From Agelas oroides (lineage: Eukaryota; Porifera; Demospongiae; Agelasida; Agelasidae), in contig OX422185.1 in assembly GCA_949130485.1 (NCBI GenBank), positions 835,501-899,500 on the forward strand: a stretch of DNA of 64,000 nucleotides, read 5' to 3'. Numbering within the stretch: the first letter of the stretch is position 1; each line of letters starts with the position of its first letter. Positions 3,470 to 64,000 of this stretch are shown here, in pieces. The position numbers and the translations under genes were made by a program. The notes beneath the pieces are model-generated. The model did no database searches. It was not told the origin of the DNA and saw nothing but the letters and a program-made list of their open reading frames with translations.

Positions 3470-3681
3470 TGTATATACCACAAATGATAGTTGTACCAGC
3501 TACAGTACGTGTGACAATCCTGTGTAGAATCGAACCCGAAGTTTGTGAAGAGCAGAGCTCACATCTCCTTTGTACACATACTTATGCATCAAAATACACA
3601 CGACAGAGTAATCATTGATTTCTGCATGCAACTACCACCACACGTGTGTATATGATCACGTACACACATTCTTCTCTTACA

Positions 3682-3926
3682 GGTGTCAGTGAGACTCATA
3701 TACCACTAGCCTTAGTTACTGCGGTAAAATTAGAGTTGTAGTTGTACTGGGTAGGTCTGGTAATAGTGTGGTATGTGGCAGCAGTCCCGTGTACTGTGAA
3801 GTGCACTTGAATATTTCTATCCATATTCCGTATTCCGTAGGGTTTAACTTTGTTCTGCATGGAAAGGTTCAGGCAAACTACATGACTGGGCCGGAGTTAC
3901 ACCAAGCCATCACAAGAGTTCCTTAT
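3682..3926 (+). pseudogene. decayed duplicate of the PDZ last exon
   Basis: The tail of the PDZ exon (GTCAGTGAGACTCATATACC) recurs at 3684. At 3839-3926 a TAGGG acceptor-like start leads to a diverged copy of the exon that still ends with the shared AAGCCATCACAAGAGTTCCT. The PDZ core GD.IL.VNG is lost. The order of the pieces differs from the original, which suggests a tandem duplication followed by decay. No gene is seen from 3927 to 4171. Confidence 0.5.
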
Positions 3927-4171
3927 CATCCTCTCTAGTTCCTCAGTGAAGAGTTGGTACATACATCAATTATTGTATGTACACAAATACTGTAAGAGAT
4001 GATATACTACACACTATTATTTGACAACAATACAAGCAATCAAACTATGTGTAAGAAGAATATGGTAATGAAAACTAACACACCATATATGGTCATACAC
4101 TAACCACCTCACATAATTGTGACTTACAAAATAATGTGTGCATGTGTGGCAAACATATACAAAATATGTGG

Positions 4172-39997: not shown

Positions 39998-40404
39998 TAG
40001 CATGATGCATGGTATAATGAGAATAATAGGGTGATGTTGTGGGAATAATTGGATAAATTGTTAGGAATTTCCAGAAAGAAAAATAGGTCCAATCTTGAGC
40101 ATAATAGGCTCAGGCCTAACATACGTCCATTGCACGCGTATGCGCGCCGCGTACGGACAATATGCGCGTGATCAACAACTTTTTTAAAAATTTTTCTATT
40201 TTTATTTTTTTATTTTTTTACAAAGATAGACAGTAAGATAGAAGTGATATAGAAATAACAATAGTGCGGACCTAAACACTTACAGTTCAGTTATACGCGG
40301 TTGTTTTGGTATTTGTAGTGAACATAGATACTCTGAATACTTCCAGAAGAGCACCAAAACCATCGCAAGATGAGCAAGACAGGCTACGCTCATTACCGAA
40401 TGCT

Positions 40405-40489
40405 GGAAAGAACGAGAGAGGGCTCGACATGCGGCAGAGACAGCCGAGCATAGGCAGGAAAGATTAATGAAGCACAGGGAGAGATAGAT
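40405..40489 (+). pseudogene. Helitron N-terminal relic at the LINE 3' end
   Basis: The plus strand reads RERARHAAETAEHRQERLMK HRER and then a stop, the repeated heptad-like motif of Helitron protein N-termini (compare 47950-48431). The LINE ORF2 frame runs antisense through it, so the last 70 or so codons of that frame are not LINE protein. Confidence 0.6.
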
Positions 40490-43390
40490 AAGATTAACCT
40501 TCTTATACCATTTCAAGCTACTTTTCCTGTCCACCTCTTCTTGCCAGTCTTCCCAGTTCTGTTTTTCTATTTTCCTCTTCCAGGCTGCTGCTGACCCTGA
40601 CTCTTCCTCTTCGGCTTCCTCCAAGCCATACTTTCTTAGCAACATCTCATATTCTTCCCTCCAGCCTACTCCACCTGACTCTTTCAATTTTTCTACTATC
40701 AGCTTCACCAGCCTCTCTTCGCCTAGCTCCCAGAATCTCCGCCCATACAACATCTTCTTCTCCTCTCTTCTTTCTTCTAACTTTCTCCATCCCATTTCCC
40801 CACGGATTGCCTCCCCTGCCACTGTTCTACTAGCTCCCAACAGTTTTCTTCCCAACCTATCCTGTACAGCCTCCAACCTCTTTCCTACTGTCTTCCCTCC
40901 TGGCCACCACACCTCTGCTGCATGTTCCAGGCCAGGCCTTGCTACTAGGTCCCATATCAATCGACCTCGCTCTGCCTCTAGTTCCCCATCCACCCTTGCC
41001 ATCCATTCAACTTTGCCTGCCCATTCCTCAGCCTGTTCCACCACCTTCTCCAGCTGCACATTTCCCCTCATCCTCTGGTCAAACCATACACCCAGGTATT
41101 TGAAGGACTCTACTTCTTCCATCTCTTCATCACCAATTTTCCACTTCTCACCACTGTTCTTTTTACCTACCACCATCACCTTACTCTTCCTTGCATTGAA
41201 CCTGAACTTCCACATTTCTGCATATCTTCCTACCATATCCAGCATCTTTTGCAACTCCTCACCTGACTCTGCTATCAGCACAATGTCATCAGCATATAGT
41301 AATGCTCCACACCATACCCCAGACACTTTCACCCCTAAGTTTTCTCTCTCCAACTCTTCCACCATTCCCATAATATAGACACTATACAAGAGTGGTGACA
41401 GGGGGCAGCCTTGCCGGAGTCCCTCGTCTACTCTAAACCACCTTGACTGTTGCCCATCTACTTGAACACTAGCTTGCACCCCTTCATACAGCCCCTCACA
41501 CAAACTAACAAATGATTCTTCCACACCGTATTCCCGCATTTTCCTCCACAGCCCTTCCCTCCACACTGTATCATATGCTTTACTTACATCCATAAAACCC
41601 AGCCAGGTACTTTTCTTCTTTCTCTTCCTCAACTCACATGCACCCCTCAAGATCATAATCTGGTCTGCACACCTCCGTTTTGCCCTGAAACCTCCCTGGG
41701 CATCTGTCAATATATTTTCTTCTGCATACTCTCCCAGCCGAACTGTCAAAATCTTTGCCCAAACTTTGGCAACACAGCTTCCCAGTGCAATGCCTCTGTA
41801 GTTGCTCGCACTCTCTGGATCGCCATCCTTAAACAGGGGTATGACAAAACTACTCTTCCAATCCTGTGGGTATACTTGGTTTCTCCTCGTTACATTGAAC
41901 ATGCACCTCATACTTTCCACCATCCTGCTCCCTCCATAAATTAACATCTCATTTAGAATTCCATCTGGGCCTGGCGCCTTCCCCCTCTTCAGCGTCTTCA
42001 AAACCCTGACCACTTATTCCCATCCTATCTCTTGGCACAGGTCTGAACTTTCATGAACTAGCTCTGGTTCCTGCTCTGGATCCAAACTATTACGACTCTT
42101 CCCTAGCTCCTCCCAATGTTTAGCCAACACCTCCAGAATCTGTTCTGTTTCTTCAACTACTGCTCCGTCCTTCCCTCTCATCCTTGTGATCCTCCGGTTT
42201 TTCTTTTTCCCTCGCAAGTCTGACCAGAATAACTTGCAACTTGGCCCTCCTTGTTCTTTGATTTTCTGCAACTTGTTCTTCCTATTTTTCTTTTTCTCCT
42301 TTCTAATCACCTTCTTCACCTGTCTCCTCTTCTCTCTGTATGTTTTCCAGCATTCATTAACTGCCTCTCCTCTCCTCCTAGCCTGTCTTAGCCGTTTGCA
42401 AGCTTCCCTTCTTGTTTGGATTGCTTCCTCCACTTCCTTCGACCACCAACCCTTAGACAGCTCTGAAATCCTTTTCTTACCAATCCCTCTTTCCGCTGCT
42501 GACATCACCTTTGTTTTCCATTCTCCCCATACTCTCTCAACTAGTTCTTCTCCTACTTCCCTGATTTCCACATCTCTCACCCAGGCCTCCCATCCTTGAA
42601 ATTCCTCCTCAATTGCTTCCTGAAACTCATCCCAGCTGCTTCTCCCATCAACCCTCCACTTGAACCTTTCTTCTCTCCTCATCTCCTTAGGGTTTCCCAC
42701 CTTAAACACACCCCAAACAACATTGTGATCTGACCCTGTATCGATAACCCCCCTGTCTTCTACTATCATTTCCACCAACTCATGCCTATGCTCTTGTGGG
42801 AATAACATATAGTCAATCACCGATTTCTTGTCTCCACATTCCCAAGTCCACCTTCCCTTACATACAGGCAGCTCGTTACTAATCACCATATTTCCTACAT
42901 ATGCTAAATTTAGTAACCTCCGTCCATTCTGGTTTGCGACTTCCTCCTCTCCTCTGCCAATATGTGCATTGAAGTCCCCCATTACCACCACTTTGTACCC
43001 CAATCTACGCCATTCCAGCAAATCAGCTCCTACCTTTTCAAATTGCACTTCAGTTTCTTCACTCCTCACACCCTCAGGATTTGCATAGACCACTCCAACA
43101 GCTACCTTCCCCTCATCTTCCAGTTTTACTTCTACCCAAAGAACCCCTTCAGTCTCATCCTTTAAGGTTCTAGCTTGCAAACCATCACGAACTAATAACC
43201 CCACACCTCCACTTGCCCTCTTACATGCCTTCCTGTTGTTTCCATACCACTTATATCCACCCACCTGAGGCTCCTCTCCCTTCCGTAGAAATGTTTCTGC
43301 CAAGCCAAATATGTCAAGATCTAGCTGCTGCAACACCAAGTTGACATCAACTTCTCTTGACCACCACCCTCTACAATTCAGGAATCCCAA
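40490..43390 (-). pseudogene. LINE ORF2: endonuclease and reverse transcriptase, one in-frame stop
   Basis: The endonuclease part (43390-42017) has GFLNCRGWW, GLAETF, the catalytic GDFNAHIG and SDHNVVWGVF. A TAA at 42014-42016 interrupts the frame between GWE and VVRVLKTLKRG. The frame then continues with RT motifs KAPGPDGI, GFRAKRRCADQI, MDVSKAYDTVW, LRQGCPLSPLLYS and YADDIVLIAES, and a C-terminal region to about WYKKVNLIYL. These enzymes nick target DNA and reverse-transcribe the element RNA. The first codon at 43390 is TTG. Upstream, poly-G runs at 43417-43460 separate it from an ATG, so a one-base slip may hide the real start. Codons below about 40490 belong to other DNA. Confidence 0.85.
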
Positions 43391-43470
43391 CCGAATTACA
43401 CCTACCTCTAGCTCTTCCCCCCCCTTTCCCCTTCCCCCGGCGCGACCCTCCCCTCCCCCCCTCCCATGAC

Positions 43471-44763
43471 TTACAGGGATTCTTGCTGGCTCAGTAGGGG
43501 GAGTGGTTCCCTCTGAGCCATCATCGATATGCAGTTCCAGAGGACTTGCTGTAACATCATCTGCTGAGCTGGATTGCAGTAAACTTGCCCCTGTCCATAA
43601 CTGGGAACCCCTCCTTCGATTCCAGGTGACTCCACTGCTTGACCTCTCACTTCTGTTGCTTGTACTCCTGGCTGCCTCTCCACTGGCTTTTGCGCACTTG
43701 TTTTTGCTTGTCCGTTTTTTGGAGTCTCCCCCTGTGCAACTTGAATCTGTGACTTTACCACTGATGTCTTCTCTTGCGCTCCCCCGTTTTTTGGACTCCC
43801 CTGTGCCTTCCTTCCGCCTTGCCCCTGCATGTTTTTATTTGGTCCTTTAGCAACCCCGTTTATTGACTTCCTACCAGTCTTCTCAGGCCATCCACTCGTG
43901 GTCCTGTACGGCCTCCACCCTTTCCGTTCCCTTTTTAAAATGATGGGTTTGCCAATCAAGTTACTGACGTCGTTTCCTGTGGTAGAGACCTGCACTCCTA
44001 GCGTCTCATGTATTTTCACTGGTGACTGTGCTTGAGCTTGGTTTTCTGTCTGGTTCTCCAACTGAAGGATTTTTCTACTGAGCACCTCCAACCTTCTATC
44101 CCTGTGTTCAACGTCTCTTTCCAGAACTTCTATCCGCTTCATCAGATGAAGTAGCAGCTCCACCATCTGAGGGGGTTGTTCTATCAGCGACTGTTCAACG
44201 ATGAAAACGTCTTTGCACTTCCTTGCCCCCAGCTGCGTCATAACTTCCTCCTTCATACTCAGCACCGAATTTGACACGTTGGTATCTGTCACTTCTCTCT
44301 CACTTCTCGCTTCTCTGTACCGTTCTTTTATCGCCGCCTCAACCTCCTCCCCAGTAAACACGCCTCTCTGTGAGCGAAAATTCTCGACGACGTCTCTCAC
44401 AGCCTGTTCACGCGCCGCTTTCCTTTCAGCCCCACCCTTCTTGCTCTCTACTGTTCGCTCAGGGCCGTCACTCTCTCCCTCGCTGAACTTCTGGCGGTCT
44501 TCGCTCACCATCTCATCTGCTCTCCGGTCACTACAAGCTTCCTCTATTCTCTTTAGGTCTTCCTCAAACTCCTTCGCACACTTTTCACACCTCCATTCTT
44601 CATCCGAACTCCCAAGCTGGCATAGCTCTCCTTCGCTCAGGCCACCACACCCACAATGGTACCATTTCTGACATCTTCCTTCGCAAAAGATACCATTCCT
44701 CACCGTCTTATTGCACTTTCCACACTTTCCACACGAGTTCACCTGCTTCGCCATGTTCGTCAA
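43471..44763 (-). CDS. LINE ORF1 with PHD finger
   Basis: 430 residues from an ATG at 44763. Residues about 11-62 form a PHD-type zinc finger (CGKCGKC, CEGRCQKWYHCGC, WRCEKC). Then comes an acidic, charged region, a coiled coil around 205-245 (LLHLMKRIEVLERDVEHRDR), and a long basic K/Q/G/P-rich tail likely to bind RNA. ORF1 proteins package LINE RNA. PHD fingers occur in ORF1 of CR1-type elements. The frame is intact and lies about 80 bases upstream of ORF2. Confidence 0.8.
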   Translation of the reverse strand: MTNMAKQVNSCGKCGKCNKTVRNGIFCEGRCQKWYHCGCGGLSEGELCQLGSSDEEWRCEKCAKEFEEDLKRIEEACSDRRADEMVSEDRQKFSEGESDGPERTVESKKGGAERKAAREQAVRDVVENFRSQRGVFTGEEVEAAIKERYREARSEREVTDTNVSNSVLSMKEEVMTQLGARKCKDVFIVEQSLIEQPPQMVELLLHLMKRIEVLERDVEHRDRRLEVLSRKILQLENQTENQAQAQSPVKIHETLGVQVSTTGNDVSNLIGKPIILKRERKGWRPYRTTSGWPEKTGRKSINGVAKGPNKNMQGQGGRKAQGSPKNGGAQEKTSVVKSQIQVAQGETPKNGQAKTSAQKPVERQPGVQATEVRGQAVESPGIEGGVPSYGQGQVYCNPAQQMMLQQVLWNCISMMAQREPLPLLSQQESL

Positions 44764-50035: not shown

Positions 50036-50352
50036 TTACAGTTCATCTTTGACAGTGGTAGAGTAATCTATGTGTTGCATGTGAGCAATGTTGTTAGCAA
50101 GTCTAGCATTATAGAAAGGATAGTCAGCTAAAACCTTCACTACTTGCTCCCAGCAGGCTCTCCCTGTGTCTAGGTATGCCTCCAGGCACCTCCTTTTCTT
50201 TATGGTACTGTCTGTGTCTATCATGTTACGAAGTCCGTTGATAACAGCTTTTTCTACCCCTAGGTTTTCACAGAGGGTTTCCCAGTTTCCAATCTCTGCC
50301 ACTGCCTTTCCAAGTTCTTGCTTGTTTGAGATACTGTGACAGCCCTCTGCAG
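50036..50352 (-). CDS. GTPase-Ig-Death gene, last exon: Death domain
   Basis: A TATTCCTCTAG acceptor (phase 1) opens an exon ending in a TAA at 50036. It reads ELGKAVAEIGNWETLCENLG, VINGLRNM, LEAYLDTGRACWEQVVKVLA and LANNIAHM. These are the six-helix pattern and two conserved Trp positions of a Death domain, which recruits signalling partners. Its phase fits both the Sushi exon (A|CT) and, if that is skipped, the membrane exon (T|CT). The protein ends in KDEL, a sequence that acts as an ER-retrieval signal only if it is luminal. Confidence 0.72.
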
Positions 50353-51032
50353 CTAGAGGAATAAAAGTATAGGAGAATTTCATTCGTGGTGGCCAAATCC
50401 AGTTTAGCCATGCATTTAGGTCATTGGAAACTGGCAAGTAGCCAAGTAAATGACAAAAAAATTATTTTCACCACTGTACCCTAATTGGTTAACGATCTCA
50501 TTAACCTTGCCTTTCTGCACTGCAAGCAATAGAAAGCAAGGCACAGCCTAGAAATGGAGCTTTTCTTCTCTCCTGTTCAGGGTCATTGAGGCCAGGTTCA
50601 GTCTCTGCTTGTCATAGATCTACATACCAGCAAGATTTCTCTAACCAGCTTCAAACTTAATGTGAGCATGCATGAACAATCAACGAACCACATCTCCCTT
50701 ATAAAAACAGGCCTAGATGTTATGCAAAGTCACCCACTGCGCAGGACACGTTTCGGCCAATACCAGGCCTCATCAGCTGCGCTGGGGTGACCGGGAGATG
50801 GGGACTGCCATATCATGCACAGAATGGAGTCAGGTGGCTGGCCTTATTCAAAAGTCGGTAGAGACTCCACATGTCAGACCTTCCTCTGACTTGAATACAA
50901 GTATGAACTAGAATTTGACAACCTGTGACTTTCATGCATAAAAAAATGCCAAGGAGTTGCAAGACCCATTATAACTATGATCTACTCTACGCAGGATGTG
51001 GGTAGCAATGTATCAAGGCCACAGAAGAGTAG

Positions 51033-51480
51033 CCCTGTGGGAGATGGTAGTACCAGCCTGGACCAGCCTGGTCTAGAGAAATCTCTATGGTACATGTATG
51101 GTAGTACCAGCCTGGTCTAGAGAAATCTCTATGGTACATGTATGGTAGTACCAGCCTGGACCTGCCTGGTCTAGAGAAATCTCTATGGTACATGTATGGT
51201 AGTACCAGCCTGGTCTAGAGAAATCTCTATGGTACATGTATGGTAGTACCAGCCTGGTCTAGAGAAATCTCTATGGTACATGTATGGTAGTACCAGCCTG
51301 GACCTGCCTGGTCTAGAGAAATCTCTATGGTACATGTATGGTAGTACCAGCCTGGTCTAGAGAAATCTCTATGGTACATGTATGGTAGTACCAGCCTGGA
51401 CCTGCCTGGTCTAGAGAAATCTCTATGGTACATGTATGGTAGTACCTGCCTGGTCTAGAGAAATCTCTATGGTAAATGTA
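51033..51480. repeat. VNTR, 45-60 bp unit, in an intron
   Basis: About eight copies of CTGGTCTAGAGAAATCTCTA TGGTACATGTATGGTAGTACCAGC. Some carry an extra CTGGACCTGC. The unit contains a small palindrome AGAGAAATCTCT. It lies between the Sushi and Death exons. Confidence 0.9.
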
Positions 51481-51669
51481 TGCATGTACGTAGTGGGCCA
51501 AGCATTAATTTCTGTCTGGAATACGCTATCCGAGTATCTGTTTACACATAGTTATCAACAAAACTCCCATTAGTACACTGAGTACACACGAATGTCTACA
51601 CTAAGTGTGTGGCAGTGTGAACTGGACCCCAAAAATTGTTCAAAGGGTAATAGGCAGTTTGCAACATAC

Positions 51670-51846
51670 TTTGACAGGTAGGTCCACTCCCAGACCACAT
51701 TCCCGTAGGTTGACATGTGCGAATACTGTCTCCCAACAGGTTGTAGCCGGTATTACAGCTGTAGGTAGCTGTCCGTCCAAATGTTGTTCCAGTAGGGTGA
51801 CTAACTCGACCATTGGCTGGGCTGGACAGAGCACCACAGTCCACAA
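51670..51846 (-). CDS. Sushi/CCP module exon
   Basis: 177 bases between a CATTTTGACAG acceptor and a GTATGT donor, phase 1 to 1. It reads DCGALSSPANGRVSHPTGTT, ATYSCNTGYNLLGDSIRTCQ and MWSGSGPTCQ, with the four cysteines and Trp of a complement-control-protein module. Such modules are extracellular and disulfide-bonded. It lies between the membrane exon and the Death exon on the same strand with compatible phase, so it may be a cassette exon of that gene or a stray module. Confidence 0.8.
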
Positions 51847-52004
51847 CTGTCAAAATGAGGAACACAACATGTACTTGTAATGTGCACGTGTGAAAAGTGG
51901 AATAGATGAACTAATGGTAGCCATTGGCTGTGTTAGCCAACACTACATACAACTGTCAAAATAACGTGTTACAAGATGCAAGGGAAAGGCAATGATATAC
52001 TGTA

Positions 52005-52530
52005 GGCACTGGTTGTTAAGTGCAGCTCTTTATAATTTATTGAGGGTTTTAGCCATCATGTGTTAGGTGCATGCGCTTAATAAATGAACTTTGAACTTTA
52101 AGCGAACGTGTCGAGCAAAACGTGTCAAGTAGTACGAAGAACGAAGAGAATGGCTGAACTAGCACTGGGAAGTAGTTTAGTCAGGAAGCGAAAAAGCTAC
52201 ACAAGAGAAGAGAAACTGAAGATAGTAAACAACTACTACAACAATGGAAAGAACCTATACCAGACGTGAAAGAAGTTCTCGCAAAATATGAAGAGTGTTC
52301 AGTGCCAGATCTGCTTGTAAATGTGATGGCCATGAATGACGCTCTCTAAAGTACTTGCTTGACGCTCTGCCCTGTTGAACGAGCGATATAACGGAAGCAG
52401 CGAAAACACCGCCCACAATTTTCACACCCATTTAATAAGCGACTATTTGTTGTTAAGCACACGTCCACTGTTAAGCGCATATTTCCTTGCTGTCAGCTGT
52501 TATAAGCGCATGTGCTTAACAACCAGCACC
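52005..52530. mobile_element. pogo/Tigger-like deleted element
   Basis: Inverted ends GGCACTGGTTGTTAAGTGC and GCATGTGCTTAACAACCAGC surround about 525 bases. The plus strand (52150-52269) opens MAELALGSSLVRKRKSYTRE then EKLKIVNNYYNNGKNLYQT, the start of a pogo/jerky-type helix-turn-helix, followed by a stop. The catalytic part is missing. It sits in an intron of the GTPase-Ig-Death gene. Confidence 0.6.
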
Positions 52531-52749
52531 TCTGGTATATTAAGCCACACTCGGGTGTCAAGTCAAGTGCATGTGTGCGTTGTACTTCAGGTACATCAAA
52601 ATCTAATGGTAGTCCATTTTTGGGAGGCATGTTCGTAATGTATAAGAAGGAAGGGAGGGAGAGGTATGTTGAACGCAGAGCCATATGGTGCTGAAGCTTT
52701 AGTCTTAGTTTAATATGTTGTGTCATTTCTAAAGTAAGCCATGACTTAC

Positions 52750-52830
52750 ATAAAGTGCCAAACAGTGCCAACACCACAGCGGTGATGAGGAAGCCACAGA
52801 TTTTGAGTAGCTTCCAATGGCATCTCTCAT
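52750..52830 (-). CDS. GTPase-Ig-Death gene, membrane-segment exon
   Basis: 81 bases between a TTTCTACAG acceptor and a GTAAGT donor, phase 1 to 1. It reads ERCHWKLLKICGFLITAVVL and then ALFGTL. A basic stretch followed by about 18 hydrophobic residues is a clear single transmembrane helix. Confidence 0.8.
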
Positions 52831-52960
52831 CTGTAGAAAGAACACAGTGGTGATCAATGATTGCAAACTTTATTCCTTACAGGAAGTATATCCACCAAAC
52901 TAACTTATTATTCCATGACTAAATTAAGAATACACACATTGTTAATCTGATGAAACTCAC

Positions 52961-53236
52961 ACACAGTAAGCTGAGCTTCCTCTGAAATTTCCCCATCTTC
53001 TTTCACCTCATTCTTCACTACACATTTGTAGCGACCAGCATCACTCTTGTTCACTTGTCGAATCGTCAGTGTATGGGTGGTAGCTCCATTGTGTCTACTG
53101 TCATTGGGCACATTACTGCCATTCTTCTGCCATTGATATGTAAGATTATCTCCACCAGCTTTAATGGAAAATGTTGCTTCTTCTCCAGTAGGTATTTGCT
53201 GGTTTTCAGGGTGCTGAGTGATCACGGGTGGATCAA
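52961..53236 (-). CDS. GTPase-Ig-Death gene, Ig domain 5
   Basis: 276 bases, phase 1 to 1, acceptor TTTCCCCTCAG and donor GTGAGT. I-set-like Ig fold: TFSIKAGGDNLTYQWQKNGS with the core Trp, then SDAGRYKCVVKNEV. The B-strand position that normally holds the first cysteine is Ile, so the standard disulfide cannot form. Confidence 0.85.
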
Positions 53237-53305
53237 CTGAGGGGAAAGAGGGCAGTATTTATAAGCACCAAAAATGCAAATGTTGACAAATCTGATGAAA
53301 CTCAC

Positions 53306-53581
53306 ACACAGAAAGTTGAGCCTCCTCTGAAATTTCTCCATCTTCATTCACCTCATTCTTCACTACACATTTGTAGCGACCAGCGTCACTCTTGTTCACT
53401 CTTTCAATCGTCAGTGTGTGGGTGGCAGCTCCATTGTGTCTACTGTCATTGGGCACATTACTGCCATTCTTCTGCCACTGATATGTAAGATTATCTCCAG
53501 CAGCTTTAATAGAAAATGTTGTTTCGGCTCCAGTGGGTATTTGCTGGTTTTCAGGGTGCTTGGTGATCTTGGGTGGATCAA
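53306..53581 (-). CDS. GTPase-Ig-Death gene, Ig domain 4
   Basis: 276 bases, phase 1 to 1. Nearly the same sequence as domain 5, with small changes (GAETTFSIKAAGDNL, IERVNKSDAGRYKC). The flanking intron is about 70 bases and also conserved, so exon and intron were duplicated together. Confidence 0.85.
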
Positions 53582-53650
53582 CTGAGGTGAAAGAGGGCAG
53601 TATTTATAAGCACCAAAAATGCAAATGTTGACAAATCTGATGAAACTCAC

Positions 53651-53926
53651 ACACAGAAAGCTGAGCCTCCTCTGAAATTTCCCCATCTTCTTTCACCTCA
53701 TTCTTCACTACACATTTGTAGCGACCAGCATCACTCTTGTTCATTTGTTGAATCGTCAGGCTGTGGGTGGTAGCTCCATTGTGTCTATTGCCATTGGGCA
53801 CATTACTGCCATTCTTCTGCCACTGATATGTAAGATTATCTCCACCAGCTTTAATACAAAATGTGGTTTCTCTTCCAGTGGGTATTTGCTGGTTTTCTGG
53901 GTGCTGAGTGATCACGGGTGGATCAA
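53651..53926 (-). CDS. GTPase-Ig-Death gene, Ig domain 3
   Basis: 276 bases, phase 1 to 1. Differs from the others by TTFCIKAGG: one cysteine appears next to the B-strand core, giving this copy two cysteines. Otherwise the same YQWQKNGSNVPN and DAGRYKCVVKNEV. Confidence 0.85.
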
Positions 53927-53995
53927 CTGAGCGGAAAGAGGGCAGTATTTATAAGCACCAAAAATGCAAATGTTGACAAATCTGATGAAACTCAC

Positions 53996-54503
53996 ACACA
54001 GCAAGCTGAGCCTCCTCTGAAATTTCCCCATCCTTGTTCACCTCATTCTTCACTACACATTTGTAGCGACCAGCATCACTCTTGTTCACTTGTCGAATCG
54101 TCAGTGTATGGGTGGTAGCTCCATTGTGTCTATTGCCATTGGGCACATTACTGCCATTCTTCTGCCACTGATATGTAAGATTATCTCCACCAGCTTTAAT
54201 AGAAAATGTGGTTTCTCCTCCAGTGGGTATTTGCTGGTTTTCTGGGTGCTTGGTGATCTTGGGGGGATGCTTTCCCTCTATGTAATTCTTCACATGGCAC
54301 CTGTAGCGACCTTTGTGAGTCTTCTCTGCATCTAAGATACGTAAAGTGTGAGTGTTAGTGCCACGATATCCATCACGATCAGTGATGTCAACGCATTCCT
54401 TTTGCCATTGGAACTGAAGCTTATCTCCCGTCGCTTCAACCTTGAACACTGCTTCTGCTTCAGAAGGCACTAACTCTTCTTCTGGATGTGACTGAATAGT
54501 TGG
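53996..54503 (-). CDS. GTPase-Ig-Death gene, Ig domains 1 and 2 in one exon
   Basis: 508 bases, phase 0 in and 1 out, acceptor TTTCCTTTCCACTAG. Ig1 (VFKVEATGDKLQFQWQKECV, then HKGRYRCHVKNY) is diverged. Ig2 (TTFSIKAGGDNLTYQWQKNG) belongs to the recent tandem family. The phase-0 start fits the GTPase exon exactly. Confidence 0.82.
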
Positions 54504-54640
54504 CTAGTGGAAAGGAAACAATGCTCATCTGATGTATACAGTAGATTTATGTCAGCAGAGTATCCCTAATAATCACAATTCTTAACATTAGACAAAAATG
54601 GGATGTGCACATTTTTGTCAGCATACAATTGTCTACTCAC

Positions 54641-56847
54641 CTCTGGAAGCCATGCATACCAGCATAGACTTGGCTCCACTTTCTCAAGGGACTGATTACA
54701 CTGAAAGGAATGGACTTTTAATAAGTGTTCAAACTTTAGAACCGGTTGTAGCACAACTGGGTGACATTTCTTGCATTCATTGCACCAGCCTTCAAATGAA
54801 AGAAAGTAGTCTTTATGCGCTTTCAGCGAGTAATGTAATGTCTTACATGCTCTGTCAATATTTTCAAAAATCAGTTTGCGAACACCATTACAGAGGATTG
54901 ACAGGGTTGACAGAGGTACATTTGGGTGGCAAGGGATAATTTCAATGTAGACATGGGTGGCTCTGACTCTCAAACGAAGAGTACCCTCATTCATTTTGAA
55001 ACAGATTTGATCTCGGAAGATTTTTGATTTATCTAAATCAAGTGTAGAATTCACCACTTGTTTGTTTGCAATACAAGCTACAAGTGATCCAAACAGCCCT
55101 TTAGGGCAGTAGCCACACTTGAATGTTATCAGCAGAGGAGGGATGGCACCTGATTGTGTGGAATCACTGGAACTGGCTTCTTCAAGGTGAGTAATGGCAC
55201 AAGGCATGAAATACTTTTTCTGGTCACCATTTTTATTTTCACCATCACCAAGTGGTACAATCACATTAAGGTGCTCAAGGAGGTCTAGCAACATTGAGGG
55301 AGTCAGCTTACTACGAGATCCTTTAGTAAGTCTCACATAATCTGCTCTTGTAAATAAACCCCGATTGAAATATTCAGTACATTGGCCAGAAAGAGTCTTT
55401 TCAAATACGAATGTTCTTTCAACTAATTGATTCACCATGCTAAAAACATACTGTGGGTCTCGGATCACAATTGCATTGAGATCAGATGGTTCAGTGTAAT
55501 AATGAAGCACTCCAGTTTGCTTGTGAAGAAACTGGAGAGCTGCTTCAAACTCAGTTGGAGATTTGATGCCACATTCACGGGCAACCTCGAAACAATCATG
55601 CTTGCTGATGACACTATCTTTTGCAAACTCATGCTGCATTAGTGTGCTAAAAATTAGCCATGGAGCAGGAGTGTGGACCTTAAAATCATCAGAAATTATT
55701 TGTAAAGCATCACGTATCTTTTTTGCATCTTTGTCAGATTCATCATCAGAGGCATTGTTTATAGTAAACACCATCTGTGTTTCAGAGGCATCCAATATCA
55801 TACCCTTACTGTAAGCATCCGTTTTTTTGACCAGTTCTTTAACATCGTCTATTTTTGCCTGACATTCCTCCTGTGAGACTTTGTCTTTGAAAGTGGCAAC
55901 AAGCATCACCCTTGGTTTGATTTTGTTTCCATCTTCATCCTTGTACTCAGTAAAAGCAATGCTTCCAAGAGATCGCAACAGATCTTCTTCTACAGTGAGA
56001 CTGGAAAGATATTTTCGCATGCACTTCTGTTCATCTGGTCTCACATACTCTACTTCATATCTACTCTTTAGGTCTTTATCAAGGGGAAAGACTATGAAGA
56101 AAACACAAGGGCCTACTACTAGTGCTGATAAGAGCTCTTGAAACTCAGGTTGGCCCCCCGAGTCAGTTAGGTACAGGGTCCGTTTGTTATCTACATGTTC
56201 TTTCAATCCAGAAACACCTTTTTCCTTCAAAACCTTTCGAAAGAAATCCATGCTCATACTGTACTGGTGAGTTGGAGAATCAGTGCTGAGTTCAGATGAA
56301 TTCCCTCCTTCTGCAGGCGAGTAGATCTCAGGGCTATCACTTCGTATTTGTTTGGATACTTGTTCTTTCTTGTTGCTCCCCACGGAATCATTTCCTTGGA
56401 ATACATTTTCCTGTTGTGCAGATGCTTGTTGTACAATTGAATCATCTATTCGTTTTGTAGACAATTGCCTCATTAGTCGAGATTTCCGTGAAATTGAATT
56501 CTTTCTTTTCATCTTCTGTTTTCTAGAGAGCTGCCCAATTAGTCCAGAAGCCTGTGTCTTTGGATCCTCAATTATTTTCCAATCAAAATCTGACACTTGA
56601 GCAACAGTTGTTGAAACATCCCTGATGATTTCAACTTGTACTGACCTTTCTGCTGCTTGGGTACTAGTGCGTATCTGATTCAACTTCATGCGAAGTAAGC
56701 GTTTTAGTAACGAACTCTTCCCCACTCCAGCTGGTCCCACAAATATACAATGCATGATAGTTTGATCCATTGTTCCAGACTGACGCATTACTTGCTCACA
56801 TACGGATAAGTAATGATCGACATCTGCATTAAAAGTACATATATACA
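54641..56847 (-). CDS. GTPase-Ig-Death gene, Roc-COR-like GTPase exon
   Basis: 2,207 bases, phase 1 in and 0 out (acceptor TTTACTTACAG, donor GTGAGT). Near the N-terminus it has a P-loop VGPAGVGKSSLLKRL. A long charged Ser/Lys insertion follows, then the switch-II-like LTDSGGQPEF and a G4-like MLVATFKDK. A COR-like winged-helix region comes next (PAPWLIFSTLMQHEF, FEAALQFLHKQTGVLHYY, VIRDPQYVFSMVNQLVERTF). A Cys-rich patch GWCNECKKCHPVV lies near the end. Roc-COR proteins (LRRK/ROCO type) are GTP-switch dimers. No LRR or kinase is present. No signal peptide precedes it, so this part is cytosolic. Confidence 0.85.
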
Positions 56848-57237
56848 CTGTAAGTAAACAAGGGAATATACATCATTTTTCAGTCCCACTTCAGGCTATA
56901 GTAAGTAGATCAATACTTTCACCGTACCCATCACTGGAATTTTGTGTTAACTAGTGGGATGATTCATCATCTTGGGGCGAGCCTGAACAAGCAGCACACT
57001 GTTGTTTTACTAATTTGTCATGGCATATAGCAGGATTTGCCACTATAGCCAAATTTCAAAACACACAAGTAGCTAAGTCCTCACCTGAGATAGCCAAGTA
57101 TCACATATGCCAGCCATTTCTCCAGCCAGGGCAGCTAATGTAGCTACATATGCATGGACTATAGTTTACAATGAAATCATGAGCTGAATTTCTAGCGTTT
57201 ATGAGTGCCGTTCATGCCATGCATGACTGACTCTTAC

Positions 57238-57292
57238 CTGAAGCGACCTCAACCACTGTCCATATTTTTACCACCGGTGAGCAGCCTGCCAT
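57238..57292 (-). CDS. GTPase-Ig-Death gene, first coding exon
   Basis: An ATG at 57292 starts MAGCSPVVKIWTVVEVAS and meets a GTAAGAG donor in phase 1, matching the acceptor of the GTPase exon at 56848. The frame is also open upstream to about 57397 with only a GTG, so an earlier start is possible. The short hydrophobic stretch is too weak to call a signal peptide. Confidence 0.5.
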
Positions 57293-57650: not shown

Positions 57651-58170
57651 AATAAAGTATGATGCTACTTCATAAAGTATGATGCTACTTGTTAAAGTAT
57701 GATCCTACTTCATAACGTATGATGCTACTTCATAAAGTATGATGCTACTTCATAACGTATGATGCTACTTCATAACGTATGATGCTGCTTCATAACGTAT
57801 GATGCTGCTTCATAACGTATGATGCTGCTTCATAACGTATGATGCTGCTCCATAACGTATGTTGCTGCTCCATAACGTATGTTGCTGCTCCATAACGTAT
57901 GATGCTGCTTCATAACGTATGATGCTACTTGTTAAAGTATGATGCTACTTCATAACGTATGATGCTGCTTCATAAAGTATGATGCTACTTCATAATGTAT
58001 GATGCTACTTCATAACGTATGATGCTGCTTCATAACGTATGATGCTGCTTCATAATGTATGATGCTACTTGTTAAAGTATGATGCTACTTGTTAAAGTAT
58101 GATGCTACTTGTTAAAGTATGATGCTACTTGTTAAAGTATGATGCTACTTGTTAAAGTATGATGCTACTT
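57651..58170. repeat. 20-bp minisatellite, 26 copies
   Basis: Unit CATAAAGTATGATGCTACTT in perfect 20-bp register, with variants CATAACGTAT, GTTAAAGTAT and GATGCTGCTT grouped in blocks. It lies just upstream of the GTPase-Ig-Death gene. No coding content. Confidence 0.95.
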
Positions 58171-62310: not shown

Positions 62311-62507
62311 TAGCTTATTATCCCGATTTTACGGTATGTGTTTTACTGAGAGGACCCAGCTACATACTAGTATTTATCCAGTGTCTACAGCATACTTGTA
62401 ACCAAGGGCGCATCGAGCTGCTGTTCCGGTGGGAGGGGAGACGAGTACCTTTACTTTCGTTTCCTCTTATCCACCAAACACACACACATGCATGCACACA
62501 CACTCAC

Positions 62508-62661
62508 TGCCTTTGTCACAGCATCCATGTCTGCCCCGTGCAGTACCAAAATCTCAGCAGCGTCCATGTTGCCCCAGTACACAGCAGCGTGCAGCGGAGT
62601 CCAACCATCATCATCTCGAGCATTCAGCTGGACCTGAGAGTTCTTTATGGAAAAGAGCACC
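62508..62661 (-). CDS. MYPT/PPP1R12-like gene, ankyrin exon
   Basis: Phase 2 in and 0 out (donor GTGAGT). Reads [40 protein letters not shown] and [11 protein letters not shown]. It aligns with the MYPT1 segment where [12 protein letters not shown] is followed by a DMEAVNK-like end. Confidence 0.85.
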
Positions 62662-62858
62662 CTGCACACGTGTGCATGTGTGAGGGGAGGGGGTGGGAAT
62701 ATAGAAAAATGTACATGTGATTTGTAAATAACTACATACATGGTAAGTAGTACATACTGTAGTAGCCACCTCAGACTTTCTGTCAAGGAATTTATCCAAA
62801 GCTGTGAGACAATCTAAGACAGAAAGTCAGGATTCAAGGTGGTCAAGCCACATCTCAC

Positions 62859-63016
62859 TTGAGCACTCGGAGGTAATTCTTTGCTGCAGCGATATGGAGG
62901 GGTGTAGCTCCACCCACACTGATCAGTGGCTTCAGAGAGGGGTCGTTTTTGAGTCTCTGGGCATCCTCCAACATGGCTGCCTCCTCCACACCCTTCATCT
63001 CCTCCACATCAATACC
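62859..63016 (-). CDS. MYPT/PPP1R12-like gene, ankyrin exon
   Basis: Phase 1 in and 2 out. Reads GIDVEEMKGVEEAAMLEDAQ, RLKNDPSLKPLISVGGATPL and HIAAAKNYLRVLK. The helical spacer GVDIE..R..EE..ML.DA followed by G.T.LH.AAAKGY is a signature of MYPT proteins between ankyrin blocks. Confidence 0.88.
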
Positions 63017-63151
63017 TGGGGAGGGGGAGGGGTAGGACAGAGGAAGGGAAGAGAGGGAGGAAGGGTAGCTTCTTTGAAATGATTCCTTCACTGCATATGT
63101 ACGCATCTCTCCCCCCCCCCCTCCCTCACACACACACTCCCCTATACACAC

Positions 63152-63270
63152 CTAGCTTGTCAATCTGCTGTTTGATCATGTCCACGATGTTTTCATCTTC
63201 AGCGAGGTCAACAGGTGTGTCTCCGTCACTGTTCACTGGGGCAGGGAACGCCCCACTTGTTAACAAAAAC
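63152..63270 (-). CDS. MYPT/PPP1R12-like gene, ankyrin exon
   Basis: Phase 2 in and 1 out. Reads FLLTSGAFPAPVNSDGDTPV and DLAEDENIVDMIKQQIDKLG, equal to the MYPT1 segment with VNSEGDTPLDIAEE. Confidence 0.88.
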
Positions 63271-63471
63271 CTGGAGTGAGGGGAGGGGAGCAAGCCAAGG
63301 ACATGAGAAGAAGGAATGCACCACTTCATTTACAGTATAAAAATGCACCTTGTGCAAGTATCTTAACATTTGTTATCCTCCCCAACCTTCTTCTTACTTC
63401 TCCACTCTCCTCCCTCCTTTAATTCCCCTCAATCTTCTCTCCCTCCCCTTCTCTCCTCCTCCCTTCCCTCA

Positions 63472-63687
<216 letters not shown>

Positions 63688-64000
63688 TTATGACAGGTTA
63701 CTGAGTGTCAACCAGGAATGCATAATTGACCAACACTCATTCCAACATTGACTCTGACTCTAAGGTGGAGACTAGCCTACAAAAGGTATATACATGCTCT
63801 TGGGCCCCACCATGCAAGCCAGTTTCCACACATGCACACACCATGGTTTCCCAAGATTTTGATTCTCACACGCTAAAGTGGCTACCCATGCCAATTTGTA
63901 CTCACAATCAGTACATTCCAACTTCACATACAATCCATACACATGCAGGAGTCTCGTTAACACGTCACACACTGTTCTAGACAGAATAAGCTACTGAAAA

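Follow-up and report, generated by a model that had tools for sequence, protein, structure and literature searches.

The DAPK1 group of ROCO GTPases is marked by an additional Death domain, is described as occurring in animals only and is involved in cell-death signalling (PMC6337361). The gene treated here lies on the minus strand at positions 50036..57292 of a stretch of 64,000 nucleotides from the sponge Agelas oroides (GCA_949130485.1, contig OX422185.1, positions 835,501-899,500), which at its full length is referred to as the window. Like DAPK1, the gene encodes Roc-COR followed by a C-terminal Death fold, but it adds an immunoglobulin (Ig) array, a membrane helix and a Sushi module between COR and Death, as well as a KDEL-type C terminus. 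Judged by the predicted C-terminal Death fold, the DAPK1 group is the closest one. A sequence-only reading of this DNA had stated that ROCO GTPases carry leucine-rich repeats (LRRs) or kinases, which overlooks DAPK1 and the ROCO group with a Death domain (PMC6337361). We suggest, with slightly less than even confidence, that the product is a type II trans-membrane ROCO protein with the GTPase and the Igs in the cytosol and the Sushi module and the Death fold in the lumen, retrieved to the endoplasmic reticulum (ER) and acting as a sensor rather than as a surface death receptor.

LRRK2, LRRK1 and the bacterial Roco proteins have the Roc-COR fold, with COR-A and COR-B, in common with the window protein, whereas the window model is without LRR, kinase and WD40 and is predicted to be membrane-spanning. 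The Death receptors Fas, TNFR1 and DR3 share a single helix and a Death fold with it, but the window protein has a GTPase on the N side, a predicted type II orientation and the KDEL end. Among the 25 best of 32 Pfam matches of the joined model we found no TNFR cysteine-rich repeat, which sets it apart from the TNFR-type death receptors, no NACHT, which sets it apart from the NLRs, and, for the part of the gene that the model covers, no kinase or ankyrin repeat. Sponge NLRs and Death- and Ig-containing immune genes likewise form large lineage-specific families with Death, NACHT, Ig and Sushi domains; in the window gene the nucleotide switch is Roc-COR. Some sponge NLRs are reported to have transmembrane (TM) helices (PMC12909245), and 357 TRADD-N proteins, most of their architectures with Death-like domains, are reported from Amphimedon (PMC8195603). 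Roc-COR joined to Death is already known from DAPK1, and is also present in genes of the same genome that lack a TM exon. For the full order of domains, which the sequence-only reading did not know from any described protein, we found no match in the open-access PMC literature, a body of text from which subscription papers and preprints are mostly absent.

Exon structure and domains of the window gene

Nine minus-strand segments join without a stop into 1382 amino acids. All eight junctions have AG/GT borders and the phases across them are 1, 0, 1, 1, 1, 1, 1 and 1, so that the borders and matching phases noted earlier are borne out. Exon 2 (54641..56823) encodes a Roc GTPase with the motifs GPAGVGKS (P-loop) and DSGGQ, followed by COR-A and COR-B. 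The Pfam score for COR-A is above the cut-off (2.8e-10, 40.7 bits against 35.3), whereas that for Roc is 0.3 bits under it (7e-6, 26.7 bits against 27). The predicted structure of exon 2 matches LRRK2, LRRK1 and the C. tepidum Roco over Roc-COR, and its Roc part matches the Roc of LRRK2. The COR fold runs to the end of the exon, and the first 25 Foldseek rows are all Roco proteins. By the features tested, a Roc G domain with COR directly after it, the window protein is a ROCO GTPase; Pfam COR-A and the Foldseek matches thereby uphold the proposed P-loop/DSGGQ GTPase with a COR-like region. Exon 2 has at least 67 matching stretches in the same genome, from a scan in which 62 of 233 candidates were scored. 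About two dozen related Roc-COR copies are clustered within 360 kb (C20:6345683-6705847). In three single open reading frames (ORFs) from other sources, P0007, P0013 and P0017, NACHT is fused to the same Roc-COR unit, and P0007 and P0013 also have LRRs, giving an NLR-ROCO fusion; in P0007 the NACHT-LRR part precedes Roc-COR.

Exon 3 (53996..54503) encodes Ig1 and Ig2 (Pfam Ig_3/I-set), and exons 4 (53651..53926), 5 (53306..53581) and 6 (52961..53236) encode Ig3, Ig4 and Ig5. Pfam thus finds all five Ig stretches that had been claimed. Bacterial Ig proteins among the matches in a protein collection are regarded as mere repeat similarity. The region of exon 6 has a 345-bp tandem unit. Exon 7 (52750..52830) encodes, by translation, a single membrane helix with Lys/Arg on its N side, and exon 8 (51670..51846) a Sushi/CCP module (Pfam Sushi, 3e-10), in agreement with the one hydrophobic helix and the Sushi module read before. 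From exon 4 to exon 8, every Ig, TM and Sushi exon has phase 1-1. A 44/98-bp tandem array (51044-51482) is located in the intron between the Sushi and Death exons.

Exon 9 (50036..50352) encodes the Death-fold domain with four conserved cysteines, and the codons of the C-terminal KDEL (50039..50050) are placed right before the stop. The AlphaFold model of this exon (pLDDT 91) is a six-helix Death fold, and the nearest solved folds are the Death domains of FADD, DR3, RAIDD, RIPK1 and TNFR1. Against Pfam Death (PF00531) the exon gave no match at E 1, and among 70 homologues one reached E 0.033. The C-terminal Death domain proposed earlier therefore stands as a fold and fails as a sequence match; we rejected exon 9 as a Pfam-recognised Death domain and assign it by fold only. 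Cysteines 27, 55 and 66 of this KDEL-type domain are present in 70 of 70 rows, and cysteine 4 in all 56 rows reaching that position. The KDEL-type Death exon is found in the window, in its near copies and at loci L029, L030 and L031, with 18 matching stretches in the genome.

A second Death type, present in L012, L013 and L017, forms a far larger set with 150 scored matches in the genome. Seven exons of this type were compared with PF00531: L013 (1.1e-4), L017 (8.2e-6) and L025 reach the cut-off, L012 (2.8e-4), L016 and L023 are below it and L031 gave no match. The two types also occur near each other. In L031 (C3:12989600-12996599) a second-type match and, by eye, Death- or CARD-like ORFs lie upstream of the KDEL-type exon on the same strand, and elsewhere a second-type exon (C3:12924161-12924499) is directly followed by a KDEL-type exon (C3:12925038-12925307), these perhaps being alternative last exons.

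Of the nine-exon model proposed before, exons 2 to 9 hold, whereas exon 1 (57238..57292, minus strand, 18 amino acids) is open and phase-compatible but unsupported. We did not find a counterpart in the 1.5 kb upstream of the GTPase exon in the two near copies. Similarity to these copies and to five diverged paralogues starts close to the exon-2 acceptor, from 38 bases ahead of it to 5 bases past it, indicating that exon 2 is a portable unit and that the upstream sequence differs. A first exon may lie farther upstream than 1.5 kb. Just upstream of the gene there is a 20-bp tandem repeat of 26 copies with 93% matches (57652-58170). Ankyrin-repeat exons (Pfam Ank) follow farther upstream on the same strand (62450-63690, minus strand) and are probably a separate gene, which we take to resemble a MYPT-type phosphatase regulator; they were rejected as a DAPK1-like N terminus, as Pfam gives ankyrin only. 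Elsewhere in the window, a strong GC skew of -0.38 to -0.46 extends across about 4 kb (40001-44000).

Two near-identical copies of the gene, with a GTPase exon 99% alike, are located at C3:760 kb and C3:572 kb. They keep the order of GTPase, Ig (six and seven domains), TM, two Sushi exons and Death exon, and thus carry more Ig and Sushi exons than the window. They are a segmental duplication and not independent evidence. Comparing the window with the two copies, the ratio of nonsynonymous to synonymous differences (pN/pS), computed from small substitution counts, is 0.17 and 0.35 for the GTPase, 0.00 and 0.26 for Ig1, 0.00 and 0.16 for TM, and 0.00 and 0.09 for Death. The Sushi module is looser, with pN/pS from 0.19 to 1.02. 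Nonsynonymous changes in the TM exon number 0 and 1.

Three diverged paralogues repeat the architecture with other numbers of Ig and Sushi exons and another Death type than the window: L017 (GTPase 55% identical) reads GTPase, four Igs, TM, Sushi and Death, L012 (61%) reads GTPase, Ig, TM and Death, and L013 (58%) reads GTPase, two Igs, TM and Death. Their models have phases 0 and then 1, and no stop. The intron before the TM exon of L013 was computed as 28 bases; an acceptor matching that of L029 gives 103 bases at the same phase. At L028/L029 an Ig array is followed by TM, Sushi and a Death exon of the KDEL type, which ends in KHEL; here, as at L037 and L039, no GTPase of this subfamily was confirmed upstream, with 62 of 233 candidates scored. 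On the sequence evidence, the architecture is a repeated one across the window, its near copies and the diverged paralogues. L014, L018 and L019 have GTPase and Ig, but in the stretches of 10 kb that were read there we found no exon of either Death type.

These loci bear on whether the window holds two genes, one for Roc-COR-Ig and, downstream of it on that strand, a separate one for Sushi-Death. Such a split would be in line with L030/L034, where Sushi-Death occurs and no GTPase was detected. We nevertheless hold it to be very unlikely, since L012, L013 and L017 give collinear models in which no intron reaches 800 bases and the phases agree throughout, the window TM exon lacks a Met ahead of the helix in its frame and so cannot start a gene itself, and Roc-COR is joined to Death within about 0.4-1.2 kb in the TM-less loci L023, L024 and L025. 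Exons 2 to 9 are most likely one gene, a member of an expanded ROCO family, and the reading of GTPase, Igs, helix, Sushi and Death fold in line is retained. L030/L034 itself (C4:5106200-5122199) has at least 12 single-exon Sushi modules before its KDEL-type Death exon and a possible TM exon upstream.

The second Death type also follows Roc-COR at loci that lack a TM exon; L016 has Ig, and L023-L027 do not. The core thus seems to be Roc-COR-Death, which is also what DAPK1 has, and the exons for Ig, TM and Sushi look like an insert between COR and Death. Other Death-like exons, with weaker profile scores, are present in L020 and L011. That of L011 (coding-strand 3645-3932) is a third Death-like exon, located behind GTPase and two Igs with no in-phase TM exon, and ends in FAID.

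Membrane orientation and C-terminal ends

The N flank of the window helix has three Lys/Arg and one acidic residue, and the C flank no Lys/Arg and one acidic residue. A scan for phase-1 hydrophobic exons found TM exons at the same place in L012, L013, L017 and L029. In these and in the window exon a Trp stands near the start, and in four of the five the next residue is Lys. Lys/Arg on the N flank with none on the C flank is likewise seen in four of five (window, L029, L012 and L013), L017 being uninformative. A single helix puts the GTPase and the Death fold on opposite sides of the membrane, and the Lys/Arg bias places the N side, with GTPase and Igs, in the cytosol and the Death side outside it. 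A second membrane helix before Death was considered and rejected: a splice-aware scan of the window, L009, L029, L030, L012, L013 and L017 found no phase-1 exon for one with acceptable splice sites.

The window protein ends in KDEL. Among 92 ORFs homologous to the KDEL-type Death exon, 31 end in KDEL, 61 in EL and 67 fit xx[DE][FLM], the pattern of Raykhel et al. as cited in PMC8276033; the misses include ORFs that are cut short or run into introns. Of the second Death type, 21 of 43 ORFs end in EL and 27 of 43 fit the pattern, for example with SEEL, SDEL and REDL. The motif is kept despite a varied length of the linker before it. As a rough background, none of 120 listed proteins of the collection has such an end, many of them being bacterial or running into introns. 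We rejected these collection proteins as cDNA, as the longer Death ORFs that were looked at run into intron-like sequence and look genomic.

Ends of the form xxEL go together with the TM exon. They are found in seven of nine TM-bearing loci: the window (KDEL), L029 (KHEL), L012 (RGEL), L013 (SEEL), L017 (SGEL), L037 (SKEL) and L039 (SDEL). The exceptions are the two near copies, L009 and L010/L032, which read SVKT and MQHI owing to insertions. None of eight TM-less Roc-COR-Death loci has such an end: L016 (FILE), L020 (FAKL), L023 (AGPV), L024 (ELEP), L025 (ELDR), L026 (ELGP), L027 (ELDR) and L011 (FAID). The loci are related and the Fisher p of 0.0023 is a guide only. L037 and L039 were checked for a TM exon on the strength of their ends and neighbours, which hinted at one, and without them the count is 5 of 7 against 0 of 8 (Fisher p 0.007). 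Four of the TM-less loci (L024-L027) are one close subfamily, and the profile scores behind the Death-like exons of L011 and L020 are weak. Each end was taken at the first stop codon in its exon; the tail of L023 has a possible donor. In L011, L016, L024, L025 and L026 there are weak hydrophobic candidates, out of phase or in simple repeats.

Outside these loci, 10 of 18 further upper-class second-type exons were sampled and six of them end in xx[DE]L. For two of these six, L037 and L039, the upstream sequence was examined as well, and each shows a TM exon preceded by an Ig array. In a sample of 6 of 129 lower-class second-type exons none ends in xx[DE][FLM].

Binding by the KDEL receptor is described as dominated by positions -1 and -2 (PMC9220330). 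The window C terminus is a KDEL-type tetrapeptide as needed for ER retrieval, and a lumenal location is predicted for it from the charge bias and the association with the TM exon. On balance the evidence, in which we also count the four conserved cysteines of the KDEL-type Death fold and the B-strand cysteine missing from nearly all Igs, favours a type II protein with a cytosolic N terminus and a lumenal C terminus with ER retrieval. The sequence-only reading had instead proposed a membrane-tethered death receptor, and this does not agree with the opposite sides of GTPase and Death fold, with the charge bias that puts the N side in the cytosol, or with the C-terminal KDEL and the similar ends of most TM-bearing relatives. 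An ER membrane protein of type II that carries both cytosolic and lumenal ER signals has been described (PMC2799409).

The same loci can be read in terms of splicing: skipping of the TM and Sushi exons would give a soluble, DAPK1-like Roc-COR-Ig-Death protein, and keeping them a membrane form. The phase 1-1 of the internal exons after the first Ig exon would allow this, L016 and L011 read Roc-COR-Ig-Death without an in-phase TM exon, and brown-algal ROCO genes, a parallel for the shuffling of exons, are reported to combine it with alternative splicing (PMC11378527). A Death domain that is mainly cytosolic would, however, not be expected to keep xxEL, found in 7 of 9 loci with a TM exon against 0 of 8 without, and we regard this alternative as unlikely.

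It is also conceivable that the KDEL-like ends are no ER signals and owe their presence to chance, descent or a role as PDZ-type ligand, with Death in the cytosol and a helix that is no true anchor or is followed by a second, missed one. KDEL also fits a class III PDZ ligand, KDEL-type Death exons may also have other partners (L031), and some ends (KDEF, RIEL, HPEL) deviate from the classical form. Stretches that are hydrophobic but lack splice support lie between Sushi and Death in four loci (window, L009, L010/L032 and L029). L012 and L017 have such stretches behind their TM exon. On the other side, the best-kept positions are -1 and -2 and not the PDZ-like -1 and -3, such ends are found on two distinct Death types, and no phase-1 second helix exon was seen before Death in the seven loci scanned. 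We consider this explanation quite improbable.

The type II orientation with a lumenal, ER-retrieved Death fold has several points to its disadvantage, to which the unspliced hydrophobic stretches between Sushi and Death belong. We know of no lumenal Death domain, and found no description of one in the open-access PMC literature. The last exon is broken in both near copies, by a 5-nt insertion in L009 and a 2-nt insertion in L032, which leaves an intact KDEL end in one of the three recent copies, counting the window gene. Four of the ten upper-class second-type exons sampled do not end in xx[DE]L. Ends with S at -4 or G at -3 may be weak ligands of the KDEL receptor, by analogy to ADEL and DDEL, which are reported to fail with human KDEL receptors (PMC8248988). 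The phase 1-1 of the TM exon means that the helix could be skipped by splicing, and a first exon farther upstream may carry a signal peptide. N-glycosylation sequons would suit lumenal Igs, as 14 of 19 are in the Igs and none comes after the helix. The B-strand cysteine of the usual Ig disulphide is absent from 26 of 27 Igs (near copies left out), but the loss also extends to Igs that have no listed GTPase next to them (9 of 9). The loss away from GTPases points to lineage history as a possible cause, and we rejected it as proof of cytosolic Igs.

A candidate ROCO sensor across the ER membrane

From the exon order, phases, domains, predicted folds and TM-xxEL association, which have computational support, we infer topology, ER residence and signalling as follows. 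In brief, a single type II signal-anchor helix would cross the ER membrane, and the KDEL-type signal would retrieve the lumenal Sushi module and Death fold to the ER. Ligand binding or oligomerisation of this lumenal part might alter the dimerisation of the cytosolic Roc-COR GTPase, and the cytosolic Igs may be a spacer or an effector-docking array. The protein would then be a sensor of the ER or secretory pathway with its output in the cytosol, and its ER placement would be suited to monitoring the secretory pathway or engulfed microbes. ER stress sensors of the IRE1/PERK type have a lumenal sensor, one helix and a cytosolic enzyme. The working layout would be the same if the window topology is right, whereas the domains are unrelated and the orientation of the window protein is the reverse (type II). 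Dimerisation as the switched step would agree with the proposal that Roco proteins cycle between monomer and dimer (PMC6337361).

More broadly, we speculate that there is a class of trans-ER-membrane ROCO receptors, with a lumenal Death fold held by KDEL-type retrieval and a signal passed through one helix to the cytosolic Roc-COR; we put this forward tentatively, as somewhat more doubtful than probable. If true, neither the lumenal Death domain nor the single-pass ROCO receptor would, to our knowledge, have a precedent. An ER-lumenal Death fold would go against the rule by which Death domains work in the cytosol. ROCO proteins such as LRRK2 and DAPK1 are cytosolic switches whose upstream input is poorly understood, and wiring through a membrane would give that input a physical form. 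The arrangement also suggests that receptors may be assembled exon by exon, with Ig, TM and Sushi cassettes placed between the GTPase and the Death domain.

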